This document shows, piece after piece, positions 3,502-64,000 of a stretch of DNA of 64,000 bases; positions within the stretch are counted from its first letter, which is position 1, and each line of letters starts with the position of its first letter. The translations under genes and the position numbers were made by a program. The notes beneath the pieces were generated by a model. It searched no databases. It was not told where the DNA came from and saw only the letters and a program-made list of their open reading frames with translations. Origin of the DNA: Macrophomina tecta (taxonomy: Eukaryota; Ascomycota; Dothideomycetes; Botryosphaeriales; Botryosphaeriaceae); the NCBI GenBank assembly GCA_024180945.1, contig JAKSGN010000001.1:332814-396813 (forward strand). Reading direction: 5' to 3'.

Positions 3502-5379
3502 CTATCCCTTAATCTCAAACTTATCCAGGGTGTTCTTCGCCATGTATTCCTGCGCAATTCTCCAATACTCGATTGGGCCACCACCCCATGAAGCTTTTGA
3601 AGCTGCCTGTACGGCTTTCTTTGGATCTAATCCGAATATTTCGCCTTCCGCGTTAAAGTAACTTGGTGTGCATGTTTGCGACACAGAAAACCATAAAGCC
3701 CTCCTCCGCACCTCACGGCTATATTCCTCCTCTGCTTCTTTCGTTGCTTCAATAGTCAACCGCTGCGTATCTTCCGCACGTTCGGAGGCCGTTGCCACGA
3801 TATGTGCCACTAATTTCGCAAGCATATCAAAAGTGGAGGTAAGATTTGGAGACATCGGCGCTCCTCCACCTGTGCTGCAGAAAAACATATTCGGGAATCC
3901 ATTCGTGGTGATTCCGAAAACATTCCCCCAATCTCCAGAATCAAACTTCTCAGACAGCAATGCACCACCGCGGCCGATGGTTGGGCAAGGGGCGGGCCCT
4001 CGAGGGACCGAGAATCCAGTGGCGAAGACTAACACATCTAAGTCATACTCAATCCCGTTCACCACGACTCCATTTTCCGAGTAGCGCTCTACACCTCTGC
4101 CGTCCGTGTCTACGAGTGTAACGTTCGGTTTGTTGAATGCCTGGAGGTAATGATCATGGAAGGTCGGGCGCTTGCACCAGCCGGGGTACCATGGCTTCAA
4201 CTTCTTTGCCACAGCCGGGTCCTTGACGATACGATCGATATGGGCGCGGATCCGCTCTGCTCGGGGGACGTCCAGCTTGAACATTGCGGCGATATGTTCC
4301 TCGACCAGATCAGGGGTTAATTCCGCCGCCTTCGCATTACCTGCCACGCCCGCAAAAGCCTGCGTCTCGGTCCAGCCATCGTTCACCAGATCCACGTCCA
4401 CCGGGTCCGCTGTAATAAAATGGTTGAAGTTCTCCTGCCTCTCAAATTGCCAGCCGGGCTTATAGGCAACCCGGGTTCTCCATTCGTTGAAATCAGTGGG
4501 CCGTTGGTTGCGAGGGCCACAATAGGATGGCGTTCGCTGGAAGACGTACAGCTGGTCGGCCCACTTGGCCAGTTCCGGGACGATCTGTACGGCAGTGGCT
4601 CCAGTTCCGATTATGCCAACCCTTTTCCCTTTCAGGTTGATCAGTTCGGGGTTCTCTTGCGTTCCGCCAGTTACATTATAGTTCCAGCGAGCAGAATGGA
4701 AAAGCTGTTTCGAACCGCGAAAGTCGGCCAAACCCGGGAGTTTTGGTATATGAGGCGTAGGAAGTATACCCGCTGCATTAATAAGGAATTGGGCGTGGAC
4801 AGTTAGAGCAAGCGGCTCCCGTCCGTGCCCACGATTTTTTGCCAACACCACACTCCATCGTCCTGTGTCCTCATCCCAGCGTTGATGATTGACCTGCGTG
4901 GAGAAGAGGGCCCGGTTACTAAGACCCCACTTTCTAGTAATATGCTCGGCATTGGCACGGATCTCGTATCCGTACGAATATCTGTTCTTCGGCACGAATC
5001 CGCTCTCCTCGAGTAAAGGAAGATAGACGTATCCTTCCACGTCACACATAAGCCCTGGGTAGCGGTTCCAGTACCACGTGCCTCCGAAGCCACCGGCGAC
5101 GTCGACGATACAGATATCCTCGGGCTTAAAGCCCGCTTGAATTAGGCGAACCGCGAAGAGGATTCCACTATGGCCCGCGCCAACGACTAAAAATTTGACG
5201 TCGCCCCCGTCCTGGATAGGCACCTGCTGGGACTCCGGGGCGTCGTAGTCGACGAAGGGATCCTCCGCTAAATCGGTGCCGATTAGATCAGCATACTGCT
5301 TTAGGCCATCCTGGCGAAGACGTTTGCTGCGCTCCTCAGCGTACTTCTGCTGCAGATCCGAGAGACTGGGTCCTAACAT
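3502..5379 (-). CDS. Baeyer-Villiger-type flavin monooxygenase
   Basis: The product is 625 residues with no interruption. Visible motifs: the first Rossmann FAD site VVGAGHSG (about residues 65-72), GGFGGTWYWNRYPG after it, a fingerprint-like FRGSKQLFHSARW (F-x-G-x5-H-x3-W, close to the Baeyer-Villiger signature), and a second NADPH Rossmann site GIIGTGATAVQ followed by VFQRTPSY. Near the C-terminus VFATGF is the usual ATG motif. Such enzymes insert oxygen next to a ketone or hydroxylate substrates using FAD and NADPH, often in secondary metabolism. It stands alone between transposons, with no synthase gene near. The minus-strand ATG at 5379 sits in an ATG-poor leader and gives the full N-terminal extension typical of this group. 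Its composition is unlike the RIP-affected flanks, so it looks intact. The substrate is unknown. Confidence 0.93.
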   Translation of the reverse strand: MLGPSLSDLQQKYAEERSKRLRQDGLKQYADLIGTDLAEDPFVDYDAPESQQVPIQDGGDVKFLVVGAGHSGILFAVRLIQAGFKPEDICIVDVAGGFGGTWYWNRYPGLMCDVEGYVYLPLLEESGFVPKNRYSYGYEIRANAEHITRKWGLSNRALFSTQVNHQRWDEDTGRWSVVLAKNRGHGREPLALTVHAQFLINAAGILPTPHIPKLPGLADFRGSKQLFHSARWNYNVTGGTQENPELINLKGKRVGIIGTGATAVQIVPELAKWADQLYVFQRTPSYCGPRNQRPTDFNEWRTRVAYKPGWQFERQENFNHFITADPVDVDLVNDGWTETQAFAGVAGNAKAAELTPDLVEEHIAAMFKLDVPRAERIRAHIDRIVKDPAVAKKLKPWYPGWCKRPTFHDHYLQAFNKPNVTLVDTDGRGVERYSENGVVVNGIEYDLDVLVFATGFSVPRGPAPCPTIGRGGALLSEKFDSGDWGNVFGITTNGFPNMFFCSTGGGAPMSPNLTSTFDMLAKLVAHIVATASERAEDTQRLTIEATKEAEEEYSREVRRRALWFSVSQTCTPSYFNAEGEIFGLDPKKAVQAASKASWGGGPIEYWRIAQEYMAKNTLDKFEIKG

Positions 5380-40858: not shown

Positions 40859-42638
40859 ATGACGCGGTCAAGCAGATACTTCAACTATCTTCCCGAATAC
40901 CGGTTGCTCGTATGCAAAGACTGCAAGTACGCCGTCTGTCTAGACCAGGTCAGGATCCATCTACGAGGCAAGCACCACGAACTGGGCCCAAAAGAGACGG
41001 CCGCAGCTCTAGCTGACGTACAGCGCGAATGGACGGATCCGGCTAAGAACGTCTCCGAGGTCTATATTCCGGCCCGCGTGAGCCAACCGATTGCGCACTT
41101 GCCGTTGTATGAAGACGGGTTGCTATGCCAGCTCGACTCTCCAAAGTGCCGCTACATATGTCGGGACATGAAAACTTTAAAGGAACATTGGCGTGTGGTG
41201 CACCACTGGTCCTTGGGCACAAAGGGTGGATCGGGCAAGCAGAAACAGGAGCGGCTTGAGGCCCGTTTGCAGACTGCAAGGAAAGAAGTCTACTGCCAGA
41301 GGTTTTTCACACAGAAGCACGGCTCGCAGTTTTTCCAGGTCGATTACGTCAATGGTAGCGACGAGGAGGAAGAGGAGAACAATAGCGGCGCATTGAGCGC
41401 CGGTCGGGAGGGCGATCTCATCAGAAGGCTTGTTGAGCAAGACCTGCAGGAGCGCGATCGCAGGCTCTCTGACACATGCCATATCTATCACGACAAAGCC
41501 ACCAAGACGGAGGTCTCGCCTTGGTTGGAGATGACCCGTTGGCCGTCCTTTTTCAACGGCCTTAACCTGCCCGACGTTTCCACCCTTGCCTACGCAGCCG
41601 ATCCCACGGAAGAGCCTTTGCTAGCTCTACTCTCCGAGAGCCTGGACCGACTCGTCGAGCGCGCATACCAGTCCATCTGCGAGGATAAGATTAGCGTTTT
41701 CGACCAGGCCCGCATTAACAGCTTTATGGCTGGCGAGCCCTCGGGTATGGAGCGGCTGCTTATGGTCAAGCTGCAGAAGAATACTTTCCGGAGCTACAAG
41801 CATCTGTGGAAACGCCTTCTCTGTTTTGCCTGCCGGACGAGCCGGGTTGACCAGCCGATACAGCTTGCACATCGGTTCACTCCTTCTCAGCTGTCTCAGA
41901 TTGAAGCTGCGCTGTCCTTATCGAGTGGTCTGCGAGCTCTTATCTTAGCTAGCGATAGCAGCAGTTCTTCCGGCGAAGTCATGAACGCTCGGAAGGAGGC
42001 AGAAGCTGCTCTCGACAGGGCGTGCCTACTCCTCTGCATCTCACTCCTCGACCACAACATCAGAGGCAGCCATTTTGAAAGCCCTGTGCTTAGCTTTCTT
42101 GCCGTTATCGGCATTGATGACAAGAAAGACTGTGGCTTCCATGGGCCACTCACTTACTCGCCCCAGCTGTCCAAATTCATTAAGATCGCACAGATGCTCG
42201 TCATCGAGCGTGCTGTACTGGCTGCAGACGAAGGGACTGTCGAATATCCGTCCGACCTGCTCGACGAGATGAGACAGCGCTTTATGATCCGGGGATCTCG
42301 CTCGGCTTTCGATTGGGCATGCAGGCTTCGCGCCTACGCAAAGAAGGTCGTCAGCAACACGACCGTTACTGGCTATATCATCTGGTCGGAGGATCTCAAC
42401 ATGGTCACTTACAAGCAGGCGACTCTTAGCATGGAGCGTCTCAAGTCATTTGTCAGTCATCAGGTATGCCTGGCCCAAAAGGAGCTGCGAGACCTTCTCC
42501 TTGTCCATCATGAGGAGAACCACGAGGAGATCGTACCCACTTTTCACCTACATCGTCTTCAAGACGACCATAGCAACGGCCAAAATGGCTGGAATTTCCT
42601 ACAGGATCCCAGAAATGCGGCGGAGCTTGACCTGCCCG

Positions 42639-45362
42639 CAGACATCCCAATAATAAATAAATACATAATATTGACATATTCTTATGTATTCATTGGCAGA
42701 TCCTAATATTATTATCGATTGCTAAGCTTATCAATAATTATTAATATAAAACTGAAGCGCCATGCATGTCGTCGTTGCCGCCAGCAATATCCATGACCTT
42801 ACCATCTACTGCCACGTAGACTTTGCGGACCAAGTCATTCTTCACCCAGTTGCTCAGGCATTGAAGCTTCTCGATAGTATCAGGCGAGAGCCGTGCCCTG
42901 TCCCAAGAAATTGTCCGCCTTGCGCAAGAGAATACCCGTTCCGGATCGTCGGACATCGCCGGCACACTTAGTATGTCAATGGCCAATTGGTGTAAACGTG
43001 GATACTCAATCCTCTGTTCTTCTCGACACCACCATTCAAGCGGTGTTTTGGTCGTCATAGGTCTTGGCGGAGAATTGACGAATTTTTCGAATTCATCCTC
43101 ATCTCCGGGTTCATCCAAGACACTCATTGACTGCTTGATACGCTCGTACGGTGTTACTTCCCGTCGTTCGTCGTTCAGCCGAGCCGCGGACTCCGACGGG
43201 AGTGGCCGGTCCTTGTACTTCGCCCAATGCTGCCGTGCACCAGCAATAGCGGTCTGCCTCCATTCCTCTGCCCAGTGGCGGTCAAGGTACCTCCGGCGCT
43301 TTTCTGGATGGAGCAATAATGCCGTGGCATATATTGGGTTTCTGTCACTCTCTTCATAATACTTCGAGAGAACCCACCAACCCATGTGAATGGAATGAAC
43401 CATACGCGCGTTGCTGGCGTATTTGCCCTGCTTTAACATCAGTCCAGGTCTGGTAATCGATCGAGCCGTCCATGGCTTACCTTGGCATTCTCAAACTGCA
43501 TGAAAAGAATATCCATATTCTCTAGCACCTGATCTATTGATGCCCACTCCATTTGCTGCTCCAAGGTCGCTTGGTAAAACAGCTGCAAGAACTCGTGAGT
43601 CATTTTGAGTACTTGCCAATCATCATGTGTGAGGATGTCGTCTTCCAGCTCGTTGTGGTATTGGTTGAGGAATATTGACAATGGACCCTCTTGGCTGATA
43701 GCCGCATCAAGCAACTTGAACCATGAGTTCCAACGGGTGATATTGTCAATTCCAAGCGCCTTTTCTGCAATGTCATCCCATGCATCGTTGCGCACTGTGG
43801 AATTACGGATGAACACCGCAATGTTGTGGTGTTTACCCATTGGGCCGATGCTCCGCCAGCCGGCAGTGTCATGGCGTTTCTTGCGCCTGTCGTGACTCTT
43901 GTGACAAGTGTTCGACTGAATTTGGTCGTGTAACGCGTCCGCAACTGTTACATCATTTACCTCGTGTTGCGCCTGCGCAATTGCGGCCTGCAGAGCGTCC
44001 TCACTAGTTGCAAAGAGAAAGGCTTGAAGGGACAAGTTAATGATGTTGCCGGCACACCGCGTTCGAGAGGACACTGGGTCAAGTGTAAGGCCGTACTCTT
44101 GCGACAGCTCAACAGCAAGTTGGCGGAGACAGGTGTCATTCTTTGCGTCATTGTCCCCAGTGAAGTAGCCGATTCGGGGCGCTAAGTGGTACTGTCGGAT
44201 AATCGTCATCAAGTGAGGTGCCATAGCCGTGCCGGCGTGAGAGCGGCGGAGGTTTGGTAGCCCTAGCAATGCTTTCCGAGGTTTGTAGGCCTCGTCAACC
44301 CATTGGGCGTGAACAGCGATATAGGCCTTCCGCTGAGGAGAAGACCATACGTCCATAGCAATGTGTACGAGGCTCCGGGCACGTTCTAGCCATTCCTTTA
44401 CGGATTGTTGATGCGCATCGTAGGCCCTATCCAAGTCCGCCGCAACTGTGCTACCGGAATCAGTTAGGAACTCTTCAACGGCAGGGTTTATCGCGGCCAG
44501 AAGTGCCTGGTATTCCGGCCAGGTTACGAAGTTGAGCGGTAAATGTTTATGTGCGGATAGCAACATCTGTGCCTCCCGAAAGGCATCGACATTGATTACA
44601 CTCCGTAGAGTGTTCATCTCATTCTCCCTGACTTGCTGCAGCCGCTTGCCGGTTGTTCTTGCGAAGGCATTTTCGATGGCTAGTTGGCGCCTGTTTTGAG
44701 ATTTTGAATCCTCTCGAACAAGTATGTGATGAGCCTTCTCGAGATGATAGCGGGCGTTGCCAGATATGTGGGTTGACCAGGATGGATTGCGACAACGCGT
44801 GCAGTAGTGAAGTAATTTCCCGCTCATAGTACGTGGCTCGTCGCCTTGAGCTTCTCGAAAGTGATCCCATGTTGATGTGGCTCTCAGTTTCCGTCTCTTG
44901 ACCGTATGCTGAGCTGACGATGCCTCGGGTTCTGACAGTGTGCTGGCAACTTGTGAGGCACTGTCAGAGGGTACCACGGAGGAAGAACTTGACGGGGCAT
45001 TGGATTGGGGCAGTGAGGATATGTTGACGTCCATTGTCGTGTGTAGAGATATGTCGCTGATGTATTACGAACTGCGTACTTGCAACGTGACGGGTATGGC
45101 GAGGCAGCAGTTTCGGTTGCTAGGAGTTACAAACATTGGAGTTCACCTCCTATCTAGAGGCCTGATAAGCAGTAATATGCGTACAAGACTGCAATTTAAT
45201 CTGAAACACTCTGGGGGAATTGGCGCTGGAAAATAGTGGGCCTATATTATTAATAGTTAACAATATATATTTATTGGCAGCGTCTATATTATTATCCTTA
45301 TGGAAAAGCTTAACAATAAATATGCCCTTAATAATAAATATATATTTATTACTGGGATGTCT
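42639..45362 (-). mobile_element. hAT transposon with 8-bp target duplication
   Basis: 2724 bp. The target CCTGCCCG is at 42631-42638 and again at 45363-45370. The terminal inverted repeats begin CAGACATCCCA. It is inserted in the coding region of OrsD-type copy A. Confidence 0.95.
42741..45034 (-). CDS. hAT transposase (BED finger, hAT dimerisation domain), one intron
   Basis: Exons 45034-43481 and 43427-42741. The 53-nt intron has GTAAGC donor, CTGAT branch and AAGCAG acceptor. Splicing joins FENAK to GKYASNARMVHS, a normal hAT sequence, and gives about 746 residues. Without it the gene reads as two ORFs. Features: a Ser-rich N-terminus, a BED-type finger (TSTWDHF, then CTRCRNPSW and HLEKAHH), the RNase H-like core (HIAMDVWSSPQRKAYIAVHA, then GYFTGDNDAKND), and a C-terminal hATC region (PLEWWCREEQRIEYPRLHQL, SDDPERVFSCARRTISWDRA). 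No stops, so it may be active. Confidence 0.9.
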
Positions 45363-46183
45363 GCCTGCCCGGTGGAAGCGGTAACTGGCTGATCAACCGC
45401 GTGCTCGATAACGACTGGCTGCGGGACGAGCTTGTCTGTCTTGGAAAGAAGAGAGAGTTACGCTGGAAGAAACCAGCTGTAAGCCAGTACCTCATCAAGG
45501 TCGACTATTTCCTCGAGCGCCTGCTGCTTCTAGTCCACTTAACATCCGGGCAGCCCGCACGTGGCACCGAGTTGGTGAGCTTGCAGCATTCGAACACTCG
45601 GCAGGGCCATCACCGGAGTATCTTTATTGAGAACGGGCTCGTCGGAACTGTTACCTCTTACCATAAGGGATACAACGTCACCGGCTCAACAAAGATTATC
45701 CACCGCTACCTACCCCGAGAAGTCAGCGAGTTGCTGGTGTACTATCTCTGGCTAATTCTGCCGTTCTGGCAGAAGCTAGAAACTTTGGCTTTCCAACGCT
45801 TGGAAAAATCGTCGTCCTTCTTGTGGCCTAAGGGAGCTGGAGGCTGGGACAGCAGTAGACTAGGAGCGGTCCTAGCTAGGGAGACAAGTGCTTATCTAGG
45901 CACAACGCTAAACGTTATGACGTACAGGCATATTGCTATTGCAATCTCACGTCAGCACTTGAGATGTGGCGGGTTCAAAAGGGATTACGGAATGGACAAG
46001 AAACTCGCGGATGAGCAGTCAACTCATGGATCTTGGATCGCAGGCACAGTGTATGCAAGAGGTCTTCAGGAAGCACCAGGGCACGTTGAGGTTAGAAGGG
46101 TTGAATATCGGGCAGTCAGCCGGGAATGGCATAGCTTTCTTGGATTTCGGGTTTACTTGGGTGACTCGAAAACGCCCGCTTGA

Positions 46184-46424
46184 GGGAAGTAAAAGCCAAG
46201 GGAACGGAGTTCTTAAGAAATTTCGTTTGTGATAGTAGGAGTCTAATTTCGATTTGTATTTTCCTTATTAGGGTCAGAGAGAAAGGATTCATAGCAAGAT
46301 ATTAGTGGTAATAGCTGGCCACTAGCTGTACATACCGATACTCGCTAGCGAATTCAGTAATAGCACACACGACTTAAAACCAGCGAGGCAGCATCGGTGG
46401 ACTTAATAGTGGTGACCGCTTGCT
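46184..46424. other. Gap between two OrsD-type copies
   Basis: No gene. Confidence 0.4.
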
Positions 46425-47675
46425 TCTATCATTAGAGCATCGATTAGCCATATGCAAGGAATGTCGACATGCGGTATGGCCAGACCAAATTGCCGCCCAT
46501 CTACAAGGGAAGCACCATAGGCTTGGGCGGAAGCAGGCGGAAAAAGTTGCAGATGCCGTTAGAGCTTAGCCAGGCTTAATCCAGTTTCCCAGCGAGCTAG
46601 AAGTGCCAGTACAGCTAAGCCAGCCCATCACGGAATTGCCGTTGTTCGAAGACGGACTGCTATGCCAGCTTCACCCCGACAAGTACCGCTATATCTGCCG
46701 AGATACGAAGACGTTGAAATGGCACTAGCGAAAGACTCACTAGTGGTCCGTAGGCGGCAGCCATAAGGGAGGAGGGTCGGGTAAGACTAAGGAGGGAAGG
46801 ATGGGGAGGCGGTTTCAAGATACAGCAAAGCAGGTCTGCTGCCAGCGCTTCTTCCCCAGCCGCCACGGCTCGCAGTACTTCGAGGTATGCCAGCCAGAGC
46901 AAGGACAAGAGAACCAGGCACGCTTTATACGGGGAGAGCAGCTATGGCAGCAGGTGTGTGATAAGGCAAATAAGAACTGGGAGGAGCTAGAGAAGAAGGC
47001 ACGGATAACGATTAAAGATGGGGAAAAGGATAAAGTTAGTCCGTGGCTGGACAGGACGCAGTGGCTACCGTACCTAGTGAATTTGAACCGAGATAAGCTA
47101 CTGGCAGCTATTAAGGAGCCAAATACTAATCCGGATAGAGAAGAGGAGCCGATCGCGGCAGCCGTCTAGAAGGCCATAGACGATATTGCGTGCATCAGCC
47201 AGGACTCCACCACTAAGCGGGTTGGCATCTTCATCCGCATGGAGATGATGAAGACAGAGAGGCACCAGAACCAGTACCAGCCGCTGCAGCCGTACATGGA
47301 CGAGGAGGCCATTATAGACCGGTCGAGAGCGTGGAAGCAAGTGTTGATGTTTTTTATCAGGACGCAGCAGCAGCACGACTAGCGGAGCCCAGAGTACAAA
47401 TTTACACGCCGGCAGTTTGATGCTTTTGTCAAGCTTATCGAAGAAGCGAAGCAGGTTGCGCATAAAAAAGACGAAGAAACGGCAGGAGAAGAGGGGGATA
47501 AGGGAGAGAAAGAAGAGAAGGAAGGAGAGAAAAAAGAAGACGGAGGAGAAGAAGAAGAAGAAAAAGAAGAAGAAGAAGAAAGAGAAGAAGACTATAGTAA
47601 AGAGGGGCCTAAGAAGCAGGAGCTGCCGAAGTTGACTAGTATCTAAAAAGCGTGTCTTGATTTCTGCATTAAGTT
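46425..47675 (+). pseudogene. OrsD-type zinc-finger gene (copy B) with many stops, 3' end lost
   Basis: One frame reads LAICKECRHAVWPDQIAAHL, then GLLCQLHPDKYRYICRDTKT, CCQRFFPSRHGSQYFEV, QPLQPYMDEEAIIDRSRAWK and a long Glu/Lys tract. It is collinear with the first ORF of the units at 58447. Stops (nearly all TAG) lie at about 46567, 46727, 46739, 47167 and 47381, mostly at Trp or Gln positions, fitting G-to-A and C-to-T mutation. It is cut at 47676 by a repeat. It contains many CT dinucleotides, unlike the young units. Confidence 0.85.
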
Positions 47676-47873: not shown

Positions 47874-47880
47874 GCCCCCA

Positions 47881-50800: not shown

Positions 50801-51560
50801 GCCGGGTCGTCGAGGAACTCCCTCCAGTGTTTCCGTTTTTGGGCCCTGATCTCCCGTATGTAGAGCGCTCTCGCTGCCGCCAGCTGCCCTGTCGCTTCCG
50901 TAATGTCCTGACTCTGTCTCCTTAGCGCCGTGCAGCGGTTTCGAAGCGCGGATACGCTCTGGCGGAGCGTTGTCAGTTTGTCGGACCACCATCTTTTTGC
51001 GTACGGTGATGGTTTGGCCCTGGGCGTCCTCGCCTCGACGATCTGCTGCACCACTCGAACGAACATGTCCGCCTCTCTGTCTAGCTCCCCCTCGCTCTCG
51101 ATCCGCCTTACTGCTGGCAGGGTGGATTGTAGCTCTGCCCTTACCGTCGCCCAGTCGGTCTTCTGAAATAGGCGTCGTCCCGTCTTTTCTGCTTCGCGCG
51201 TGATTGTCAGGTCCAACCACGTTTCGATTGCGCGGTGGTCGGAGCCATGGTCGGTCTCGTATATCCTGCAGGTCTCTCTCCGTTCTGCCAGGAACTCGGA
51301 TGCCAGCACCAGGTCGACCGTGGACCTTAGCTCTCCGTTTTGGTGCTCCCATGTGGCCGTTCCCGGGCGGAGCAGGGACTGCAGCCCCCATTCCTGCATG
51401 AGGTTGATCACCTCGCTCGCCTCCCCTTGCCGCGCCGTGTGGGCGATTGCGTCTCCTCCCCACAGTTGGTCGTGGCGGTTGAAATCCCCAGCCACAATCA
51501 CCTCCACTTCTTCCCTTTCCTCCTGTCCTACCTTCCGGATGGTCTGGTCGATGAGTCTGA
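47881..51560 (-). mobile_element. LINE family B, 5'-truncated
   Basis: The tail, reading AATC repeats on the minus strand, is at 47881-47905. A 3' UTR and ORF2 follow. It ends abruptly at 51560, where the young helicase unit starts. Confidence 0.9.
48031..51560 (-). CDS. LINE ORF2: endonuclease (partial), reverse transcriptase, RNase H
   Basis: About 1176 residues, open throughout. The frame also runs into the neighbouring unit (MGAESTLITVDSLLSVWV), but that part is a hairpin repeat and not LINE protein. The endonuclease lacks its first third and begins near VEVIVAGDFNRHDQLWGGD; it keeps ASEFL and DHGSDHRAIE. The reverse transcriptase has YRPISLLATISKG, HNHFGARRRRSCEQA and the active site GFVDDY. 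The RNase H looks complete (VFVDGALREG, LATELLAI, LATDSQRALD, VPAHSGVEGNEAADRAAKK). The C-terminus has CECGTGQETVKHVLLACPRW. It is probably inactive because of the missing 5' part. Confidence 0.9.
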
Positions 51561-51576
51561 CCCAAACCGAAAGGAG

Positions 51577-51604
51577 TGAATCCACCGTTATAAGGGTGGA
51601 TTCA
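51577..51604. promoter_or_regulatory. LoxP-like hairpin site, lineage 1 (also at 51757-51784)
   Basis: Arms TGAATCCACC and GGTGGATTCA flank the 8-bp spacer GTTATAAG. Extra direct right-arm copies (GGTGGATTCA) are at 51648, 51663, 51828, 51843 and 51858. Compare lineage 2 at 57921. It is possibly a recombinase site; no transcript evidence exists. Confidence 0.6.
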
Positions 51605-52294
51605 GCGCCCATACAAAATTAAGGTTTAGGGTTAGGGTTACGGGTACGGTGGATTCAGGTACGGTGGATTCAGAAAAAGAAGTCGGATTTGCGTTAGACC
51701 GAGATATGTTATAGAGTAAGGTCAGGCGATAAGATTTTTTGCCAAACCGAAAGGAGTGAATCCACCGTTATAAGGGTGGATTCAGCGCCCATACAAAATT
51801 AAGGTTTAGGGTTAGGGTTACGGGTACGGTGGATTCAGGTACGGTGGATTCAGGTACGGTGGATTCAGAAAAAGAAGTCGGATTTGCGTTAGACCGAGAT
51901 ATGTTATAGAGTAAGGTCAGGCGATAAGATTTTTTGCCTACGACATGCCCGCCCGACCGCGCGTTCGAGCGTAATTTGGCAGTTAGGGTAAGTTGGGGTT
52001 GAATTCGATGGGGTGAAAGTGGCCCGAGCGGAGCGGTGGTGGAATTGCAGAGCCGCCGGGTAGGTAAAGAGCGAGCGAACGTGCAGCCGGCAGCAGCGCG
52101 AAGAGACCGCAGCAAAGCGGGACGAGTCAGATAGTTTAACAACGGGAAGGGACGGGTAGTCAGGCAGGCAGAACAAGCCGGTCAGGGGAAAAGAAGACGT
52201 GTTTTCACATAAGAGCAAGGTAGTAGCGATCAACGAGCAATAATTAAACAACGAACAGCAGACGGCAGACAGCAGACAGCAAGTACAAGTCACC

Positions 52295-52734
52295 ATGACC
52301 GCCCGAGCAACCGAGTATTTTTATCATTTGGGCGAGTACCGGGTCGCGGTGTGTAAAGAATGCCGGCACGCCGTGTGGGTGGATCAGGTACGGGCACATT
52401 TACAGGGCAGACATCACGGCATCGGCGGAAAGGGCGTAGAGGCGATCGCAGACGAGGTTAGAGAGTTTCCCGGATTAATCAGGTTCCCCGGAGAGTTCGA
52501 GGTGCCCGCAGGCGTCGATAAGCCGATCCCGGAGTTACCGATATACGCGGACGGGTTAATGTGCGAGTTGCAGCCCGACAGATGCAGATATATTTGCCGG
52601 AACGAGAAGGCGATGAAGAAGCATTGGCGTGTCGAGCATCAGTGGTCGGCGGGCAGGCAGAAGGGCGGATCGGGCAAGAGTAAGGCCGATGGAATCGAAA
52701 GGCGTTTTCAGGAAGCAGTAAGGCGGGTGCATTG
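52295..52734 (+). pseudogene. OrsD-type zinc-finger ORF1, copy 1, truncated
   Basis: Starts MTARATEYFYHLGEYRVAVC and continues with both C2H2 fingers (VCKECRHAVWVDQVRAHLQG, then CRYICRNEKAMKKHWRVEHQ) to RRFQEAVRRVHC, where the gypsy LTR begins. It is clearly related to the ORF at 58447 but distinct in many residues, so it is a separate lineage and not a recent duplicate. Leucines are coded by TTG/TTA, as expected with CT excluded. Confidence 0.9.
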
Positions 52735-53223
52735 TGTTACGGCGCAGCCTCCACAGGGTTAGGGAACAGCAGGATGAGGTAGTAAGTGGGGAGCTCGGGT
52801 GCGGCGTGGAAAGGACCCACGCGCGCTCACGTGAAGCACGTGACGCCAAGATAGTGCTCTCACTGCTCCGAAGGCGCTCGGACCGGAACACCACAGAGCA
52901 CCCAGAGCAGGACAAGCTACTCTGTCTGCTCCCAAGGTCACCGCCCTCCCGAGGGACAGAGCAGACGGATCAGAAACTAGATTGTATACACTTTCCTACT
53001 TGTATATAAACCACACTCCTTAGATAGCTTTGACCTTCGTGGTCAACTTCAATAACAATTCAGCACATTGTTAGTAACACGGCCTTCGCACGCAGTGCTC
53101 AGTCTTGTCACGTGTTCGACTTGCTCTCACCCTCTTCTTGTACCCACTCAAGGAAAACCCCCTCGACAGGTTTTCTCCCTCTTCGGTGTTTGGATCCTTA
53201 GAGGCAGAGGCCCGCTCGTTACA
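52735..53223 (+). mobile_element. 5' LTR of a gypsy retrotransposon (LTR-A)
   Basis: 489 bp from TGTTACGGCGCAGCCTCCAC to GCCCGCTCGTTACA. It has a TGTATATAAACCACACTCC promoter block at about 52995. It is inserted after CATTG in OrsD-type copy 1; the matching right duplication is not present because the element is truncated. Confidence 0.93.
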
Positions 53224-57118: not shown

Positions 57119-57904
57119 ATTTATTTATTTATTTATTTATTTAGTTTAACGTCCTTCTTGAGTCAGAGACTATCAAAGACGGGCTTTAGAAGCCGTTTCT
57201 AGTTATACATTTTCTAGAGGCTCCTTGTAAAAGAAGCATTCTAGGAGAGCACAAGGAATAGTAGACTTAAAAGCCAAACGAGAGGCAGGCCTCTAAGGAG
57301 ATAGTATAAGAGAATAGTAATAGAAAACAAAGGAGTGTAAGCGTCGGACGTATTTAAACCCCGTCGGGCGTGTTGTTAAGAATCCACCGGCGCGTAGATA
57401 TCTTGGTTTTTCTAAGAAACTCAGCTGTTGCTTGAGCGCCTTTATTTGTAGTGAATAGGTCCGTAAGATTAAGAATAGGTTTCTCCAGAGCGTCTTTTAT
57501 AGAGAGCCTTTCAGCTCTATATAAATAACAGTCTAAGAGGAGATGTCTCGGTGTTTGCTTTGCCGTACCAGAGCAGTAGCATCTATCATCCTCTACATGG
57601 TTAAACGGGTAGAGATAGGACTTGAAGTACCCGTGTCCAATCTTCAGCTGGTAGAAGGAGGAAGCTGTTTCCCTTACTGTAGTAGGGGCGATCAGCTTCC
57701 TCTTTATCTTCCAGGTAAATGCTTTACTGTAGGCTGAGCTGGGAACTGATAAGAGCTGGCTTTTCCACTCGTTGTAGAGAACTTCTTTTAGTTGCATTCC
57801 GTAGAATGCAACAGAAGTGTCTTCTGTTGTAGGGGGGATTAACGTTGCTTGTTTAGCAAGTCTGTCGGCCTCCTCATTTCCGTGCACGTTGACGTGCCCC
57901 GGAA
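57119..57904 (-). mobile_element. LINE family D fragment, 5'-truncated
   Basis: The tail reads AAAT repeats on the minus strand (57119-57143). The 3' UTR and RNase H plus C-terminal ORF2 follow. It ends at 57904 where a young unit starts with CCCAAACCG. A second scrap of this family is at 12183-12400. Confidence 0.88.
57354..57904 (-). pseudogene. LINE ORF2 C-terminal part (RNase H end, cysteine motif)
   Basis: From VPGHVNVHGNEEADRLAKQA through KIGHGYFKSYLYPFNHVEDD to CYCSGTAKQTPRH and the end RRWILNNTPDGV. The VPGHVNVHGNEEAD stretch is the last conserved block of RNase H. The apparent start MGPESTLITVDSLLSVWV belongs to the next element. Only about 180 residues remain of a protein normally over 1000. 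Confidence 0.85.
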
Positions 57905-58045
57905 CCCAAACCGAAAGGAGTGAATCGACCGTTATAAGGGTCGATTCAGGTCCCAAACCGAAAGGAGTGAATCGACCGTTATAAGGGTCGATTCAGGTCC
58001 CAAACCGAAAGGAGTGAATCGACCGTTATAAGGGTCGATTCAGGT
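57905..58045 (+). repeat. Three perfect 47-bp tandem copies of the hairpin-site block
   Basis: Units start at 57905, 57952 and 57999 (CCCAAACCGAAAGGAGTGAA, then the hairpin arms and spacer, then AGGT). The copy at 62463 has only one. This is a head-to-tail duplication of the unit's own 5' end. Confidence 0.95.
57921..57948. promoter_or_regulatory. LoxP-like hairpin site, lineage 2 (also at 57968, 58015 and 62479)
   Basis: Arms TGAATCGACC and GGTCGATTCA flank the spacer GTTATAAG. Half-sites GGTCGATTGA (58086) and GGTCGATTCA (58100) follow. The differing base from lineage 1 (51577) changes in both arms and in the half-sites. Confidence 0.65.
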
Positions 58046-58061
58046 CCCATACAAAATTAAG

Positions 58062-58080
58062 GTTTAGGGTTAGGGTTACG
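58062..58080 (+). repeat. Telomere-like TTAGGG tract
   Basis: GTTTAGGGTTAGGGTTACG. The same is found at 51631, 51811 and about 62528, always about 15-20 bp after the hairpin block. The fungal telomere repeat is TTAGGG. Confidence 0.8.
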
Positions 58081-58446
58081 AGTACGGTCGATTGAGTACG
58101 GTCGATTCAGAAAAAAGATGTCGGATTCGCGTTAAATTAAGATATGTTGCAGAGCGCGGTTAGGCGATAAGAATTTTTGCGTATGACATGCCCGCCCGAT
58201 CGCGTGTTCGAGCGTAATTTGGCAGTTGGGGTAAGTTAGGGTAAGGTTGAGGGGGTAAGAGCGGCCCGAGCGCGGTAGTGGTTAAAGAGCGCGCATTCGC
58301 CGGGTAGGCACGCAGCGCGCGAACGTGCAGCAGGCGCCGAGTCAGAGAGTTAAGAGCAAGGGTTAAAGTAGTTAGTTCGATAGCAAAGGGTGGTTTCCCG
58401 CATCAACGCAGCGAAAGAATAAGCAGATAGCAGCGAAATAACGAGC

Positions 58447-60084
58447 ATGCAGCAAGCGAAAGTCAACATGGCCGAAACAGCGGAGTATTTTCATCATTTA
58501 GGGTTAGGAGAATTTGGAGTCGTCGTGTGCAAGGAGTGCCGGCACGCGGTGTGGCCGGATCAGGTGGCAGGGCATTTGCAGGGCAGACATCACGGCATCA
58601 GCGGAAAGAACGCAGAGGCGATCGCGGAGGAGGTCGTGGCGTTTGCCGGATTAATCAGGTCCCCCGGAGAATTTCAGGCGCCCGCAGGCATCGACAGGCC
58701 GATCCCGGAGTTGCCGTTGCATCAGGACGGGTTAATGTGCGAGTTACAGCCCGACGGGTGCCGGTATATTTGCCGGGACAGAATGACGATGAAGAAGCAT
58801 TGGCGCATCGAGCATCAGTGGTCGGCCGGCAGCCGAAAGGGCGGGTCGGGCAAGAGCAAGGGCGAGCGGGTCGAGAGGCGGTTTCAGGAAGCAGTGAGGC
58901 GGGTGCATTGTCAGCGATTTTTCACGAGCCGGCACGGATCGCAGTATTTCGAGGTGCAGCAACCGGCAGAGGAAGAGAATGGAACGCGCGAAGACGGCAA
59001 CGGCGGCAGCAACGATAGTAGCAGGGACACGTGGACGCGGGCGTGGCAGCAGATGCAGGCCCGGTTCGAGCAGGCCGAGAAGGAGGCAGCCGCCGTCGTT
59101 CAGGACGCCGAGAGGGATCAGGCGAACCCGTGGTTGGAGCGGACGCAGTGGCAGAAGTATTTGGCCGGCAAGAACCGCGAGGATTTGTCGCGGTGCATCG
59201 TCAAGCCGGGCGGCGAGGAGGACGAAAAGAAGAACAGACGATGGAAGCCCGCCGATAAGGAAAAAGACGATCCGAACGAGCCGATCGAGACGGCCGTGTG
59301 GCAGGCGATGGAGGACGTTGCCCGCATTAGTCAGGAGAGCGTGGCGAAGCGGGCGGGCGTGTCGATGCGGATGCAGGCGATCAGGACGGAGAAGCATCAG
59401 ACCCGATATCAGCCGTTGCAGCCGTATATGGACGAGGAATCGATCAAGGACCGTGCCCGGTCGTGGGAGCAGGTGTTGATGTTTTTTATGCGGACGCAGC
59501 GGCAGCACGATTGGGACAGCCCGGCGTACAAATTCACCCGCAGTCAGTTCGAAGCATTCGTCAGATTGGTCGAAGAGGCAGAGCGGGAGGTAGAAGGAGG
59601 CGAAGATGGGGAAGAAAGTAACAAAGAAAACGAAGATAACGAGGAAGCAGAAGAGGAGGGAGAAGGGGAAGGCGACGAGGAAGAAAGCGAGACAAACGAG
59701 AAGGACGAAGAGAAGTGGCAAAAATTAACCCCGATTCAACGGGCATGTTTAGATTTTTGCATCGAGTTGTTGAATCAACGATTCGTCGAGCGCGAGTACG
59801 AGAGTGCGTTGGTATGCGCCGCCGCCGTGGTAGGAGTCGACCCGACGGACAACAGTTGGAGAGGCCCGGAGACATACGGGTCGATTTTATCGGCGTTGAT
59901 CAAGGTGGCGCATTTCATGGTCATTCAGAAGGCATTCGAGGTAGCAACGCCGGCGGAGGAGAACGAGCATTTTAGCGCGAGCGCGAGGCCGTGTGATTTC
60001 GAAGATAGTGGATACGAAAGCGGGGAAGCAGTAGAAGCGGCGAGAGCAGCAGGCGCCCCGGCAGGAGCGGGTTGCAGTGGGTGA
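58447..60084 (+). CDS. OrsD-type zinc-finger protein (ORF1 of the unit)
   Basis: 545 residues. A second ATG (MAETAEYFHH, 58468) is equally likely as start. First finger VCKECRHAVWPDQVAGHLQG with RHH (about residues 27-50); second CRYICRDRMTMKKHWRIEHQ (about 104-123). Then a basic linker, CQRFFTSRHGSQYFEV, a long helical part with QPLQPYMDEESIKDRARSWE and VLMFFMRTQRQHDWDSPAYK, and an acidic tract (NKENEDNEEAEEEGEGEGDE). The C-terminus ends PAGAGCSG. The fingers could bind the hairpin site. The next ORF overlaps by 13 nt in another frame, where copy A (40859) is one continuous protein. Leucines are only TTG/TTA. Function is inferred from family pattern. Confidence 0.85.
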   Translation: MQQAKVNMAETAEYFHHLGLGEFGVVVCKECRHAVWPDQVAGHLQGRHHGISGKNAEAIAEEVVAFAGLIRSPGEFQAPAGIDRPIPELPLHQDGLMCELQPDGCRYICRDRMTMKKHWRIEHQWSAGSRKGGSGKSKGERVERRFQEAVRRVHCQRFFTSRHGSQYFEVQQPAEEENGTREDGNGGSNDSSRDTWTRAWQQMQARFEQAEKEAAAVVQDAERDQANPWLERTQWQKYLAGKNREDLSRCIVKPGGEEDEKKNRRWKPADKEKDDPNEPIETAVWQAMEDVARISQESVAKRAGVSMRMQAIRTEKHQTRYQPLQPYMDEESIKDRARSWEQVLMFFMRTQRQHDWDSPAYKFTRSQFEAFVRLVEEAEREVEGGEDGEESNKENEDNEEAEEEGEGEGDEEESETNEKDEEKWQKLTPIQRACLDFCIELLNQRFVEREYESALVCAAAVVGVDPTDNSWRGPETYGSILSALIKVAHFMVIQKAFEVATPAEENEHFSASARPCDFEDSGYESGEAVEAARAAGAPAGAGCSG

Positions 60085-62462
60085 ACAAGATGATGGACGA
60101 TTTCATGGTCCGCGGCAGCGACAGCCCGATGCAGTGGTTTTTGGATTTGCGGGCGTATGGTATGAAGATTCATTTCAACACAACGGCGAAAGGGCACGTC
60201 GGGTGGAGGGATAGAGATGTGTTGGAGTACAAGAACATATCGTTCAGCATGGCGCAGTTCCGCGGGATGGTACACGGTTTGGCGCAGACGACGGCGCAGG
60301 TGTTGGTCGAGGATTTGTTGTTTTGCAAAAGCCGGCGGGAGGTGCCCGCGGTGCCGTGGCATTCGATGCATGACGACCCGACAAACGGCCGTCGAGGGTG
60401 GAATTTTTTGCAGGATCAGCGCAACAGATTCCCCGTGGACGGGAGGTCGTGGTTGTTCGAGCAGATTATGCAGAACGGCGCGGTCAGAAAGCGGTTCACC
60501 CGGCAGGGGACGGCGTCGGGGTTGAGCCGCGAGGCGGTATCGGATTGGATGAGCCGGGTTGCGGCGTTTAAGGAAAAGTTATTGGTGTTGATGCACATAA
60601 CGGGCGGGCAGCCGGCGAGAGGGCCGGAGATATTAAGCATCAGGCACAGCAACACGGCGGAGGCGGGGCACCGGCATATTTTCATCGAAGACGGGATGGT
60701 CGTGTTTGTTACGCGGTATCACAAGGGGTACGCGTTGCAGGGAGATGTCAAGATCATTCACCGGTATTTACCGCGCGAGGTGGGCGAGTTGTTGGTGTGG
60801 TATTTGTGGTTGGTTTTGCCGTTTCAGCAGAGAATTGAGGTGTTGATACGAGGCAAGCAGCAGCAGGGGCAGCGGCAGGGGCAGCAGCAGGAGCAACAGC
60901 AGGAGCAACAGCAGGAGCAGCAGCAGGAGCAACAGCAGCAGGAGCAGGAGCAGTCGCCGCCGTTGTCCGCGCATTTATGGGCAGCCGAGCCCGGGGGCAA
61001 GAAGTGGACGACGGAGCGGATGAGACAGGCGATTAAGCGGGAGACAGCAGCGGGGTTAGGGCATGAAGTCACGGTGCGGGCGTATCGTGATATCGCGATA
61101 GCAATCAGCAGGCAGTGGATCCGCGGGCCGACGGCGTTCAGGCAGGACGATGGAGAGGGAGACGATAGCGAGCAGCGGCAGGATGAGGACGGCATGGCGG
61201 CGGCGATCGCGGACGCGCAGGCAGGGCACACGTCGCACGTGGCGGGAATCGTATATGCGAGGGGAATCATGGAGCAGTTGGGGTGGGTGGCAGAACGAAG
61301 GCAGCAGTTCCGGGCGTGCAGCGTCGATTGGCACCGATTTTTAGGATTCGAACCGACGGGTCAGGCAGACGAGCGGAACGAGGCGGCGGATAGCAAGGCG
61401 ACGAGCAAAAAGCGCAAGCGGTGCCCGTTCGAGGAGGAGGCGGAAGAGGAGCGGTTGGATCGTTGGATCCGGTTAAACAAGATGAATGCCGAGGAACAGT
61501 TGCGGCAGTTGGTGGGTAAGGAGGCGGTTTTCCGCAGCGTGCAGGAGCCGGCATTGGATGCGATCAAGGCAGGGCACAGCCCCGTGGTGGCAGTGATGCC
61601 GACGGGGGCGGGCAAGAGCGTGTTATTCACATTGCCGGCGTGGGCAGAACCCGGTGGCACGACAGTAGTAGTGGTGCCGTTGAAGTCGTTGCGGAAGGAT
61701 ATGAAGCGGCGGTGCGATGAGGCGGGGGTGCGGTGCGCGGTATGGGGCGGCAGGCGGCAGGCGGATGCGGAGTCGATCGTGTTGGTGACGCCGGAGGCGG
61801 CGGTGGGCGAGGAGTTCGGGACGTTTTTAAAGCGCATCAGGCGGACGAGGCAGTTGGACCGTATCGTGGTGGACGAATGTCACGTCGTGTTGAACGATAG
61901 GGTGGATTTTCGGAAGCATTTGCAGCAGTTGGGCAAGTTGGCGGGAGTAGAGACGCAGATGATATTATTAACGGCGACATTGCCGGCGGCGGAGGAGAGC
62001 AGGTTGTATAAAAGGATGGGATGGAGGGCGGACGAGGTAAAGATGTTTAGGGGGTCGACGGTGCGGAAGAACGTGCGGTATCGGGTGGTTGGCAGGAAGG
62101 AGAGTAGTAGGAAGGAGCAGGAGGATTTGGTAGCGGAGTTAGTGGATCGGGAGTTGAGGGCGTCGGCGGAGGGGAAAGTAGTAGTTTATTGCAAGACGCG
62201 GGGGGAGGTGGAGCGGTTGGCGAAAGCAGGCCGGTTCGCGTGCGAGGAATTCCGGGCAGACATGAGCGAGCGGCGAAAGGACGAGGTGTTGGAGGATTTC
62301 CGAGTGGGTAGAGAACGGGTGGTAGTGGCGACGAGCGCGTTGGGGATGGGGATCGATATACCGGGCATCAGGTTGATCGTGCACGCGGGCGAGCCGCGTA
62401 GCATGATGGATTACGGGCAGGAGAGCGGCAGGGCGGGGAGAGATGGCGGAAGAAGCGAGGCG
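60072..62462 (+). CDS. Tyrosine-recombinase-like plus RecQ-type helicase protein (ORF2), C-terminus cut
   Basis: About 797 residues up to the junction at 62462; the frame runs on into the next unit to 62495. The first in-frame ATG is at about 60090. About residues 175-400 hold HITGGQPARGPEILSIRHSN, RYHKGYALQGDVKIIHRYL, VRAYRDIAIAISRQWI and HVAGIVYARG, in the order Arg, Lys/His, RH-like and Tyr of tyrosine recombinases. This is a tentative reading. A polyglutamine tract (about 262-295) lies inside. The helicase follows: motif I MPTGAGKS (about 508), II DECH (about 600), III LLTATLP, IV VVYCKTRGE, V VATSALGMGIDIP, VI QESGRAGRDG. It ends just after motif VI where the next unit begins, so the RecQ C-terminal part is missing. 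Confidence 0.8.
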
Positions 62463-64000
62463 GCCAAACCGAAAGGAGTGAATCGACCGTTATAAGGGTC
62501 GATTCAGGTCCCATACAAAATTAAGGTTTAGGGTTAGGGTTACGAGTACGGTCGATTGAGTACGGTCGATTCAGAAAAAAGATGTCGGATTCGCGTTAAA
62601 TTAAGATATGTTGCAGAGCGCGGTTAGGCGATAAGAATTTTTGCGTATGACATGCCCGCCCGATCGCGTGTTCGAGCGTAATTTGGCAGTTGGGGTAAGT
62701 TAGGGTAAGGTTGATGGGGTAAGAGCGGCCCGAGCGCGGTAGTGGTTAAAGAGCGCGCATTCGCCGGGTAGGCACGCAGCGCGCGAACGTGCAGCAGGCG
62801 CCGAGTCAGAGAGTTAAGAGCAAGGGTTAAAGTAGTTAGTTCGATAGCAAAGGGTGGTTTCCCGCATCAACGCAGCGAAAGAATAAGCAGATAGCAGCGA
62901 AATAACGAGCATGCAGCAAGCGCAAGTCAACATGGCCGAAACAGCGGAGTATTTTCATCATTTAGGGTTAGGAGAATTTGGAGTCGTCGTGTGCAAGGAG
63001 TGCCGGCACGCGGTGTGGCCGGATCAGGTGGCAGGGCATTTGCAGGGCAGACATCACGGCATCAGCGGAAAGAACGCAGAGGCGATCGCGGAGGAGGTCG
63101 TGGCGTTTGCCGGATTAATCAGGTCCCCCGGAGAATTTCAGGCGCCCGCAGGCATCGACAGGCCGATCCCGGAGTTGCCGTTGCATCAGGACGGGTTAAT
63201 GTGCGAGTTACAGCCCGACGGGTGCCGGTATATTTGCCGGGACAGAATGACGATGAAGAAGCATTGGCGCATCGAGCATCAGTGGTCGGCCGGCAGCCGA
63301 AAGGGCGGGTCGGGCAAGAGCAAGGGCGAGCGGGTCGAGAGGCGGTTTCAGGAAGCAGTGAGGCGGGTGCATTGTCAGCGATTTTTCACGAGCCGGCACG
63401 GATCGCAGTATTTCGAGGTGCAGCAACCGGCAGAGGAAGAGAATGGAACGCGCGAAGACGGCAACGGCGGCAGCAACGATAGTAGCAGGGACACGTGGAC
63501 GCGGGCGTGGCAGCAGATGCAGGCCCGGTTCGAGCAGGCCGAGAAGGAGGCAGCCGCCGTCGTTCAGGACGCCGAGAGGGATCAGGCGAACCCGTGGTTG
63601 GAGCGGACGCAGTGGCAGAAGTATTTGGCCGGCAAGAACCGCGAGGATTTGTCGCGGTGCATCGTCAAGCCGGGCGGCGAGGAGGACGAAAAGAAGAACA
63701 GACGATGGAAGCCCGCCGATAAGGAAAAAGACGATCCGAACGAGCCGATCGAGACGGCCGTGTGGCAGGCGATGGAGGACGTTGCCCGCATTAGTCAGGA
63801 GAGCGTGGCGAAGCGGGCGGGCGTGTCGATGCGGATGCAGGCGATCAGGACGGAGAAGCATCAGACCCGATATCAGCCGTTGCAGCCGTATATGGACGAG
63901 GAATCGATCAAGGACCGTGCCCGGTCGTGGGAGCAGGTGTTGATGTTTTTTATGCGGACGCAGCGGCAGCACGATTGGGACAGCCCGGCGTACAAATTCA
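62463..64000 (+). mobile_element. Telomere-linked helicase-type unit, copy 3 (runs off window)
   Basis: Starts CCAAACCGAAAGGAGTG directly after the cut helicase of copy 2. It has one site block, the telomere-like tract, the leader and ORF1, nearly identical to copy 2 (only about two differences noticed, e.g. GAGGGGG versus GATGGGG in the leader). No CT on the plus strand. The array therefore continues to the right. Confidence 0.93.
62911..64000 (+). CDS. OrsD-type zinc-finger protein (ORF1 of copy 3), partial
   Basis: Starts MQQAQVNMAETAEYFHHLGL (the inner MAETAE start is at 62932) and is open to the window edge. It matches the ORF at 58447 except for Lys to Gln at residue 5 as far as compared. 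Both fingers and QPLQPYMDEESIKDRARSWE are present. The 3' part and ORF2 lie outside. Confidence 0.93.
   Translation, partial: MQQAQVNMAETAEYFHHLGLGEFGVVVCKECRHAVWPDQVAGHLQGRHHGISGKNAEAIAEEVVAFAGLIRSPGEFQAPAGIDRPIPELPLHQDGLMCELQPDGCRYICRDRMTMKKHWRIEHQWSAGSRKGGSGKSKGERVERRFQEAVRRVHCQRFFTSRHGSQYFEVQQPAEEENGTREDGNGGSNDSSRDTWTRAWQQMQARFEQAEKEAAAVVQDAERDQANPWLERTQWQKYLAGKNREDLSRCIVKPGGEEDEKKNRRWKPADKEKDDPNEPIETAVWQAMEDVARISQESVAKRAGVSMRMQAIRTEKHQTRYQPLQPYMDEESIKDRARSWEQVLMFFMRTQRQHDWDSPAYKF

Follow-up and report, generated by a model that had tools for sequence, protein, structure and literature searches.

Loss of the CT dinucleotide from one strand of telomere-linked helicase elements in the fungus Macrophomina tecta

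Results

CT is absent from one strand of a terminal array

We report that the CT dinucleotide is lost from one strand of a family of elements at contig ends of the fungus Macrophomina tecta. The stretch under study is the right end of contig C1 (JAKSGN010000001.1) in an assembly of 54.1 Mb and 37 contigs; its 64,000 bp are called the window, and positions without a contig name refer to it. The tract at 57905-64000 belongs to an array, at the contig end, of a telomere-linked fungal element that encodes an OrsD domain, a recombinase-like region and a RecQ helicase. Labels C1 to C36 denote contigs, and A, B, C, G, H, J and X are groups of elements, X being locus L044. A script count found 0 CT on the plus strand of the tract against 210.3 expected by composition (C 1234, T 1039), which bears out both the absence reported in a first-pass annotation made by eye and its expectation of two hundred or more. 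AG, which is CT on the other strand, is retained (639 versus 571.7 expected) and the effect is confined to one strand, as that annotation had held; neither of the contrary outcomes it had named, a CT count near expectation or a matching loss of AG, was found.

The CT-free run extends from 57875 to the window end, the nearest upstream CT beginning at 57873. Since 62464-64000 duplicates the unit beginning at 57999, the independent sequence amounts to about 4.5 kb. Across the family A arrays at 11 contig ends we counted 7 CT in 61,143 bp, where about 2145 were expected, the loss being imperfect in some copies. The aligned 59.5 kb of these arrays hold 44 substitution variants, a few of which create CT; CT can therefore arise and last a while. 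By hand count, 27 of the 44 are A to G or T to G on the sense strand, a bias due either to errors in sequencing or to drift toward G on one strand.

Several simple causes were rejected or judged unlikely. Chance and skewed composition fail because 2000 shuffles of the 4465-bp unit gave a mean of 150 CT and never fewer than 116, and GC skew fails because the coding part of L044 has a skew of 0.12 yet 0 CT against 218 expected. Both open reading frames (ORFs) use only TTA and TTG for leucine and contain no TCT, CCT, ACT or GCT codon, just as first noted; codon choice is nevertheless excluded as the cause, because the non-coding parts (3804 bp in 8 pieces) also hold a single CT against 120 expected. 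Leader, coding and 3' non-coding DNA are all affected, so the exclusion is indeed blind to codons. Repeat-induced point mutation (RIP) was rejected, since the loss of CA and TG on both strands that marks its products was not seen in A, B, G1 and G2 (CA 1.3-1.5 times and TG 0.8-0.9 times expectation). An assembly or base-calling artefact is unlikely, because L044 comes from another assembly and the DNA interposed between elements is normal. That interposed DNA consists of long interspersed nuclear element (LINE) and Gypsy sequence caught between older elements and newly joined leaders; its CT counts are normal (55 versus 45 and 211 versus 172 expected), and position at the telomere alone is therefore not the cause.

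The loss is a trait of the element family

CT loss is a family trait. Counting each element from its leader to the end of the sequence read, and not between flanking CTs, we found 0-5 CT in each of five elements besides A (B, G1, G2, J and X), against 103-261 expected; homologous units from this and another assembly thus repeat the pattern. Family B, present in at least 8 copies, was read whole on contig C36 (84-90% protein identity; 3 CT versus 187 expected in 5780 bp) and in part on C9 (0 versus 98 in the last 3303 bp). G1 has 4 CT against 196 expected in 6107 bp, all within the first 274 bp (+21, +27, +75 and +273 from the leader start, none beyond), and G2 has 5 against 178 in 5510 bp, four of them within the first 100 bp (+36, +59, +74, +99 and +860). 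J, read in part, has none in 3001 bp (103 expected).

The most distant member, L044 (PBMZ01000166.1:3758-14769), shares 31-33% protein identity with ORF2 of family A and has 1 CT against 261 expected in 6914 bp. It carries an 1848-aa OrsD-helicase frame together with LINE-type gag frames on a contig titled as a Planctomycetaceae metagenome-assembled genome; in view of these frames, the contig probably represents fungal DNA that was assigned to a bacterial bin. Helicase-region matches in bacterial records (L045-L049, 26-31% identity) were not used.

A further nearly CT-free tract lies at 51558-52748, with a single CT at 51938. It includes the family C element (51742..52748, plus strand), which is 73% identical to A at the DNA level and has that one CT in 1007 bp (36.5 expected). 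Decayed internal copies have low but nonzero counts (L031, 9 against 71 expected; L032, 20 against 146; L033, 46 against 125; L034, 33 against 53). Other relatives are CT-normal: the window copy at 45365..47590 (plus strand; 116 CT versus 95 expected; 42-51% amino-acid identity to ORF2), which forms one clade with an 881-aa protein of contig C20 (158 versus 147), and L043 on C21, read in part (116 versus 94). No helicase appears among the matches listed for these three. A 615-aa OrsD-domain ORF at 40859..42706 (plus strand) is likewise normal (136 versus 114).

A second word is avoided in some families

A trinucleotide scan revealed a point missed by the first-pass annotation: CCA is also nearly gone from the CT-free strand. 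Its counts are 2 against 44.7 expected in A, 3 against 63.9 in B and 4 against 14.4 in C (over 51741-52735), while TGG in the A unit is not lost (104 versus 78.6). The A unit has its CCAs only at the leader start and at +47. CCA is normal in G (72 versus 69.9 expected in G1, 54 versus 55.7 in G2), and L044 retains it, with 146 past position 4180. In H (contig C20:81500-86300, minus strand, L038), which was read almost solely in its coding part, CT is not reduced (213 versus 154 expected), and the sense strand has 0 CCT against 27 expected and 1 CCA against 25, with AGG and TGG normal. CCW, W being A or T, is gone from H in all three codon phases with one exception. The avoided set thus varies by lineage: CT in G, J and X, CCW in H, and both CT and CCA in A, B and C.

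Third codon positions argue against deamination

Repeated deamination of cytosine, the first cause proposed in the annotation, would turn CT into TT on an exposed sense strand, be it single-stranded DNA at a telomeric overhang or in an R-loop, or RNA. Where CT is lost, TT does stand at 1.85-2.3 times expectation, and the non-coding parts have an excess of 82 TT and 53 GT over expectation and a deficit of 119 CT. We tallied four-fold degenerate third bases in six frames from A, B, G1 and L044. Before T (n=283) there are 0 C, 170 G, 63 A and 50 T; before other bases (n=1161) there are 417 C, 207 A, 465 G and 72 T. The vacant positions are thus refilled mostly by G (60%) and A (22%); T makes up 18%, where about 42% would be predicted under CT-to-TT change and about 10% under free replacement. 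By family, T before T is about 10% in A and B, 20% in G1 and 30% in L044. This redistribution argues against C-to-T deamination and speaks for selection. Hypermutation is also at odds with the CT retained in LINE DNA trapped at the same ends and with the few new CTs that last in array copies, and it leaves the loss of CCA without other CA loss unexplained; we consider it very improbable.

New copies join mainly at the avoided words

The first base of a leader is fixed except for a C-run of varying length, and the DNA preceding it is cut at varied points. Outside the A units we distinguished 12 contexts of A-, C- or B-type leaders. Native sequence was read at six sites for A and C leaders, with the +47 site, which is homologous in A and C, entered as one; all six are CC^W, the caret marking the join: CCC^A at the left end of contig C6, CC^T at C13 left (from decayed paralogues with C-to-T decay), GAACC^T at C18 right, GCC^A in G2 read against G1, GCC^T at the family C leader and CCC^A at the shared +47 site. 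Of the CC dinucleotides in window 1-44000, 54% have A or T next, and base frequency alone would give six of six with a probability of about 0.025. Joins of A on A, at 11 ends, fall at the sole CCA inside the unit in 36 of 49 cases, and the A leader that truncated G2, in which CCA is retained, joined it at that word.

G leaders are preceded by C and start with T (C|TGNCCCCAATG) at all four places seen; the native C^T was read at C7:95845, and near 47874 the reading is less certain, as TG is shared there. The L044 leader at its LINE join also has C before it and T first. Family C has a single CCT, which is also its single CT, and two leaders have joined there, one of type C (51741) and one of type G (C7:95845).

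Such joins could also come from end-joining by microhomology alone, in which broken ends are healed onto the C-run of a leader; CCA would then be lost as a match to the leader start, and CT for an unrelated reason. A leaders begin (C)CC|AAACC, and at several joins the native site has CC, CCA or ACAAAC in common with the leader. Pairing to CCA would bring nothing to native CC^T sites, which are three of the six read, and this explanation does not fit the avoidance of CCT in H, that of CT in A, B, C, G, J and X, or the G leaders that abut C^T. We regard it as improbable as the whole account.

Arrays at contig ends

Element copies occur at 18 of the 74 contig ends (C1, C3 (both), C5, C6, C7, C8, C9, C10, C11, C13, C18, C21, C30 (both), C31, C33 and C36), with the sense, CT-free strand running toward the end; some relatives are located inside contigs. 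The terminal 1537 bp are identical, down to the same last base, in the six contig ends compared (C1, C3, C5, C6, C9 and C13), and C10 ends short of this block. We take the common last base for a limit of the assembly graph and not for a demonstrated chromosome end. The repeat (TTAGGG)3 was not found anywhere in the assembly. A TERT RNA-binding domain was found in it, ruling out lost telomerase.

That the CT-free strand of the arrays runs to the contig end like a telomeric G-strand, and that TTAGGG itself has no CT, would suit a need of replication: the strand might have to lack a word for priming or pausing, by C-strand synthesis or a helicase, to persist as long single-stranded 3' DNA. The avoided word varies among families within one host, though, and interposed LINE DNA at the same ends contains CT. 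We know of no absolute priming word of this kind in fungi, and give the explanation little credence.

Long RIP-like stretches nearly devoid of CA and TG were seen at the contig starts L011, L012, L018, L021, L028 and L029; the multi-copy terminal arrays, at about 99% identity, show no such loss, unlike those starts.

Encoded proteins

ORF1 (545 aa, 58447..60084, plus strand) contains an OrsD domain (PF12013, E 1.5e-23) at residues 22-124, which is also found in L036 and L044; we take OrsD and DUF3505 to be the same domain. ORF2 (807 aa, 60072..62495, plus strand) begins with a part bearing tyrosine-recombinase-like motifs (R183, K218, R339, H386, Y395). The order of catalytic residues in tyrosine recombinases is R-K-HxxR-H-Y. 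Among 30 homologues R, K, R and Y of this recombinase type are invariant and H nearly so, and the corresponding region of H carries HDYRH. Pfam and PDB profile searches with the recombinase-like region gave no relevant match, and the Pfam scan returned no integrase-type family. C-terminal to it lie DEAD (PF00270, E 7.9e-20) and Helicase_C (PF00271, E 5.3e-20) domains. The helicase is of RecQ type, as the best matches of profile A1 are structures of RecQ1, RecQ5 and BLM (best E 5.7e-63). No reverse transcriptase (RVT) domain was found in ORF1, ORF2 or the frames of L036 and L044.

The window copy of ORF2 is broken, its frame being separated from ORF1 and its 3' end lost; 12 of the 19 matches of at least 95% identity lie within an open frame of 1280-1339 aa. 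Named close protein relatives, among the best 120 of 332, are from Lasiodiplodia, Neofusicoccum and Pyrenophora. Scans of viral contigs with ORF2, alignment A1, P0006 and the L044 protein found no relatives.

Anatomy of the window

The tract opens with two 47-bp stubs of the family A leader (57905..57998, plus strand), each stopping at CC^A 47 bp past the leader start. A family A unit follows at 57999..62463 (plus strand; 4464-bp period) with leader, ORF1 and ORF2, 0 CT against 150 expected and the two CCAs noted above; its 3' end is missing, cut just past helicase motif VI (placed by eye). A second, partial unit (62464..64000, plus strand) stops at the contig end. Upstream, a family C leader stub (51561..51741, plus strand) breaks off at native TTTTTTGCC^TACG, where it meets the next leader.

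At the start of the family A leader there is an inverted-repeat site, TGAATCGACC-GTTATAAG-GGTCGATTCA (58015..58042, plus strand), whose 10-8-10 layout resembles that of loxP and FRT. The corresponding family C site has matching changes in both arms, and the leader repeat therefore points to a candidate protein-binding site. Two more half-sites, GGTCGATTGA and GGTCGATTCA, follow in direct order (58086..58109, plus strand), and a short telomere-like stretch, TTTAGGGTTAGGGTTA, lies at 58062..58078 (plus strand). By eye, the leaders of A, C, G and L044 have a CCCAYAYAAA-like motif in common behind the inverted repeat, and the sequence of the arms is family-specific. Such differences between leader families suggest that the binding sites may co-evolve.

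Between older DNA and the family A leader lies a LINE fragment (57121..57904, minus strand; 55 CT versus 44.7 expected) with a (TAAA)n tail that reads TTTA on the plus strand. LINE fragments with (TTTA)n tails, here and at L035 (6190-6401) and L019, have the tail inward on older DNA and a family A leader at the opposite side. Telomeric retrotransposons sit likewise on older DNA, tail inward. L044 has a comparable stacking with (GATT)n.

Discussion

Of the causes offered in the first-pass annotation, cutting of CT-containing copies fits best, given that joins with new copies fall mainly at avoided words, whereas repeated deamination is disfavoured. Our best model, a tentative one, is that arriving copies join one strand at a short word, truncating the residents, so that word-free copies survive. 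Through its fixed 5' leader, a new copy would attach to the strand whose 5'-to-3' direction leads to the chromosome end, at C^T for G and probably X and, for A and C, at CC^A or CC^T. All DNA distal to the join would be lost, each arrival truncating a resident copy, and copies free of the word would escape internal cutting, stay full length and keep spreading. Over time the word would disappear from one strand, in coding and non-coding DNA alike, and families that live with two word types, such as A, B and C, would lose both. The element's own recombinase and helicase may perform the join, possibly on single-stranded 3' DNA, with truncation as the selecting force. The model builds on the observed word loss on one strand, which is spread over diverged families with family-specific words, at which many leaders are joined.

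A number of points weigh against this model. Six of the 12 contexts were read natively, two of them (C and G2) within other elements, and the site at C18 right may alternatively be CCC^G minus one base. C11 right is ambiguous, A having CCC^C there and the L033 copy GC^T; native letters are unread at C31 left, C3 left, 51561 and the B leader, and a paralogue search with the C3-left flank found none. The LINE site at 57904 is presumably CCCA, judged from an RNase H tryptophan motif and not read. Thirteen of the 49 A-on-A joins lie outside CC^W (CCC^G in 5, GAC^AAAC in 2, the vicinity of GATGG in 5, with stub lengths of 4405-4411, and an unknown native site in 1), and the 36 stubs at CCA may be tandem copies of few events. 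The join bases of L044 could belong to the LINE, and the leader of H was not found. Microhomology of the leader C-run with native CC or CCA is a real confounder of the join pattern. The word at which A joins does not account for the CT loss in A, which requires attack by CT-type elements. At third positions, T before T was seen 50 times where about 27 are expected under pure selection. Finally, both G1, which lies about 96 kb into contig C7 from its left end, and J, at about 50 kb on contig C10, face away from the nearest end, and therefore not every copy is in a terminal setting now.

The main rival to truncation is a purge at the RNA level: a nuclease, or a surveillance factor that binds RNA, would attack CU (or CCW) in sense transcripts, only word-free transcripts would be expressed, and the element would evolve to lack the word, much as CpG is lost under ZAP but almost absolutely. 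It would suit the restriction to the sense strand, the involvement of leader, coding and 3' non-coding DNA, and the third-position redistribution, which is consistent with selection. Most CTs of G1 and G2 lie in the first 76-100 bp of the leader, with one each after, as if avoidance ran from a transcription start. A single host factor does not explain why families of one genome avoid different words, and joins sited at those words are left unexplained; we know of no host factor that attacks CU or CCW in this way. We judge such a purge unlikely.

Going beyond truncation as such, elements at chromosome ends may compete through an attack word of two or three letters, immunity being gained by deleting the word across the element: CT for G, CCW for H, and both for A, B and C. 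We put this forward more cautiously still. If true, it would amount to a code for self and non-self written as the absence of a word across a whole element.

The element family is already known in part. In the passages seen of two papers, telomere-linked helicase (TLH) elements of fungi include the DHX_G198 family of C. higginsianum, with a helicase, DUF3505 and TTAGGG motifs, and the reference lists cite a first report from 1998 (PMC5576322, PMC7473861). Ours resemble them in the RecQ-type helicase with OrsD (DUF3505), the location at chromosome ends in one orientation and the short telomere-like motif; those passages mention no strand-specific word loss, recombinase-like region or arrays of leader stubs (PMC5576322, PMC7473861). 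Subtelomeric RecQs were described there as having no domain besides the helicase core (PMC7473861). The order of tyrosine-recombinase-like motifs and the apparent inverted-repeat site would be shared with Cryptons, which are DNA transposons mobile by a tyrosine recombinase alone; unlike the present element, these are described in a main text that, as far as seen, does not contain the word helicase (PMC3212892). Passages of PMC5576322, PMC7473861, PMC8381367 and PMC3212892 do not mention strand-specific word loss. Literature searches, covering listings and the starts of abstracts, listed no paper that describes it; as far as these sources go, the annotation's remark that it knew of no described element with this property stands.

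End addition and truncated stacks are also features of the telomeric retrotransposons HeT-A/TART, MoTeR and FoTeR. HeT-A/TART and MoTeR are reverse-transcribed and have their 3' tail inward; in the present element it is a fixed 5' leader that connects to the old end, and no reverse transcriptase domain was found. The Y' elements of yeast are similar in being subtelomeric, helicase-coding repeats in arrays, for which we know of no word loss, OrsD domain or recombinase-like region. In RNA viruses under ZAP, CpG is a dinucleotide selected against on RNA; that depletion is partial and concerns another word, unlike the near-total loss seen here.

A near-total loss of one dinucleotide from one strand over kilobases, kept at protein identities down to about 31-33%, needs a strong, strand-aware force, one not described in the papers searched. 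The trait can be checked by counting one word in any long-read fungal genome, and word loss opens a way to study, from sequence alone, the spread of telomere-linked helicase elements, their competition and perhaps their capping of chromosome ends.

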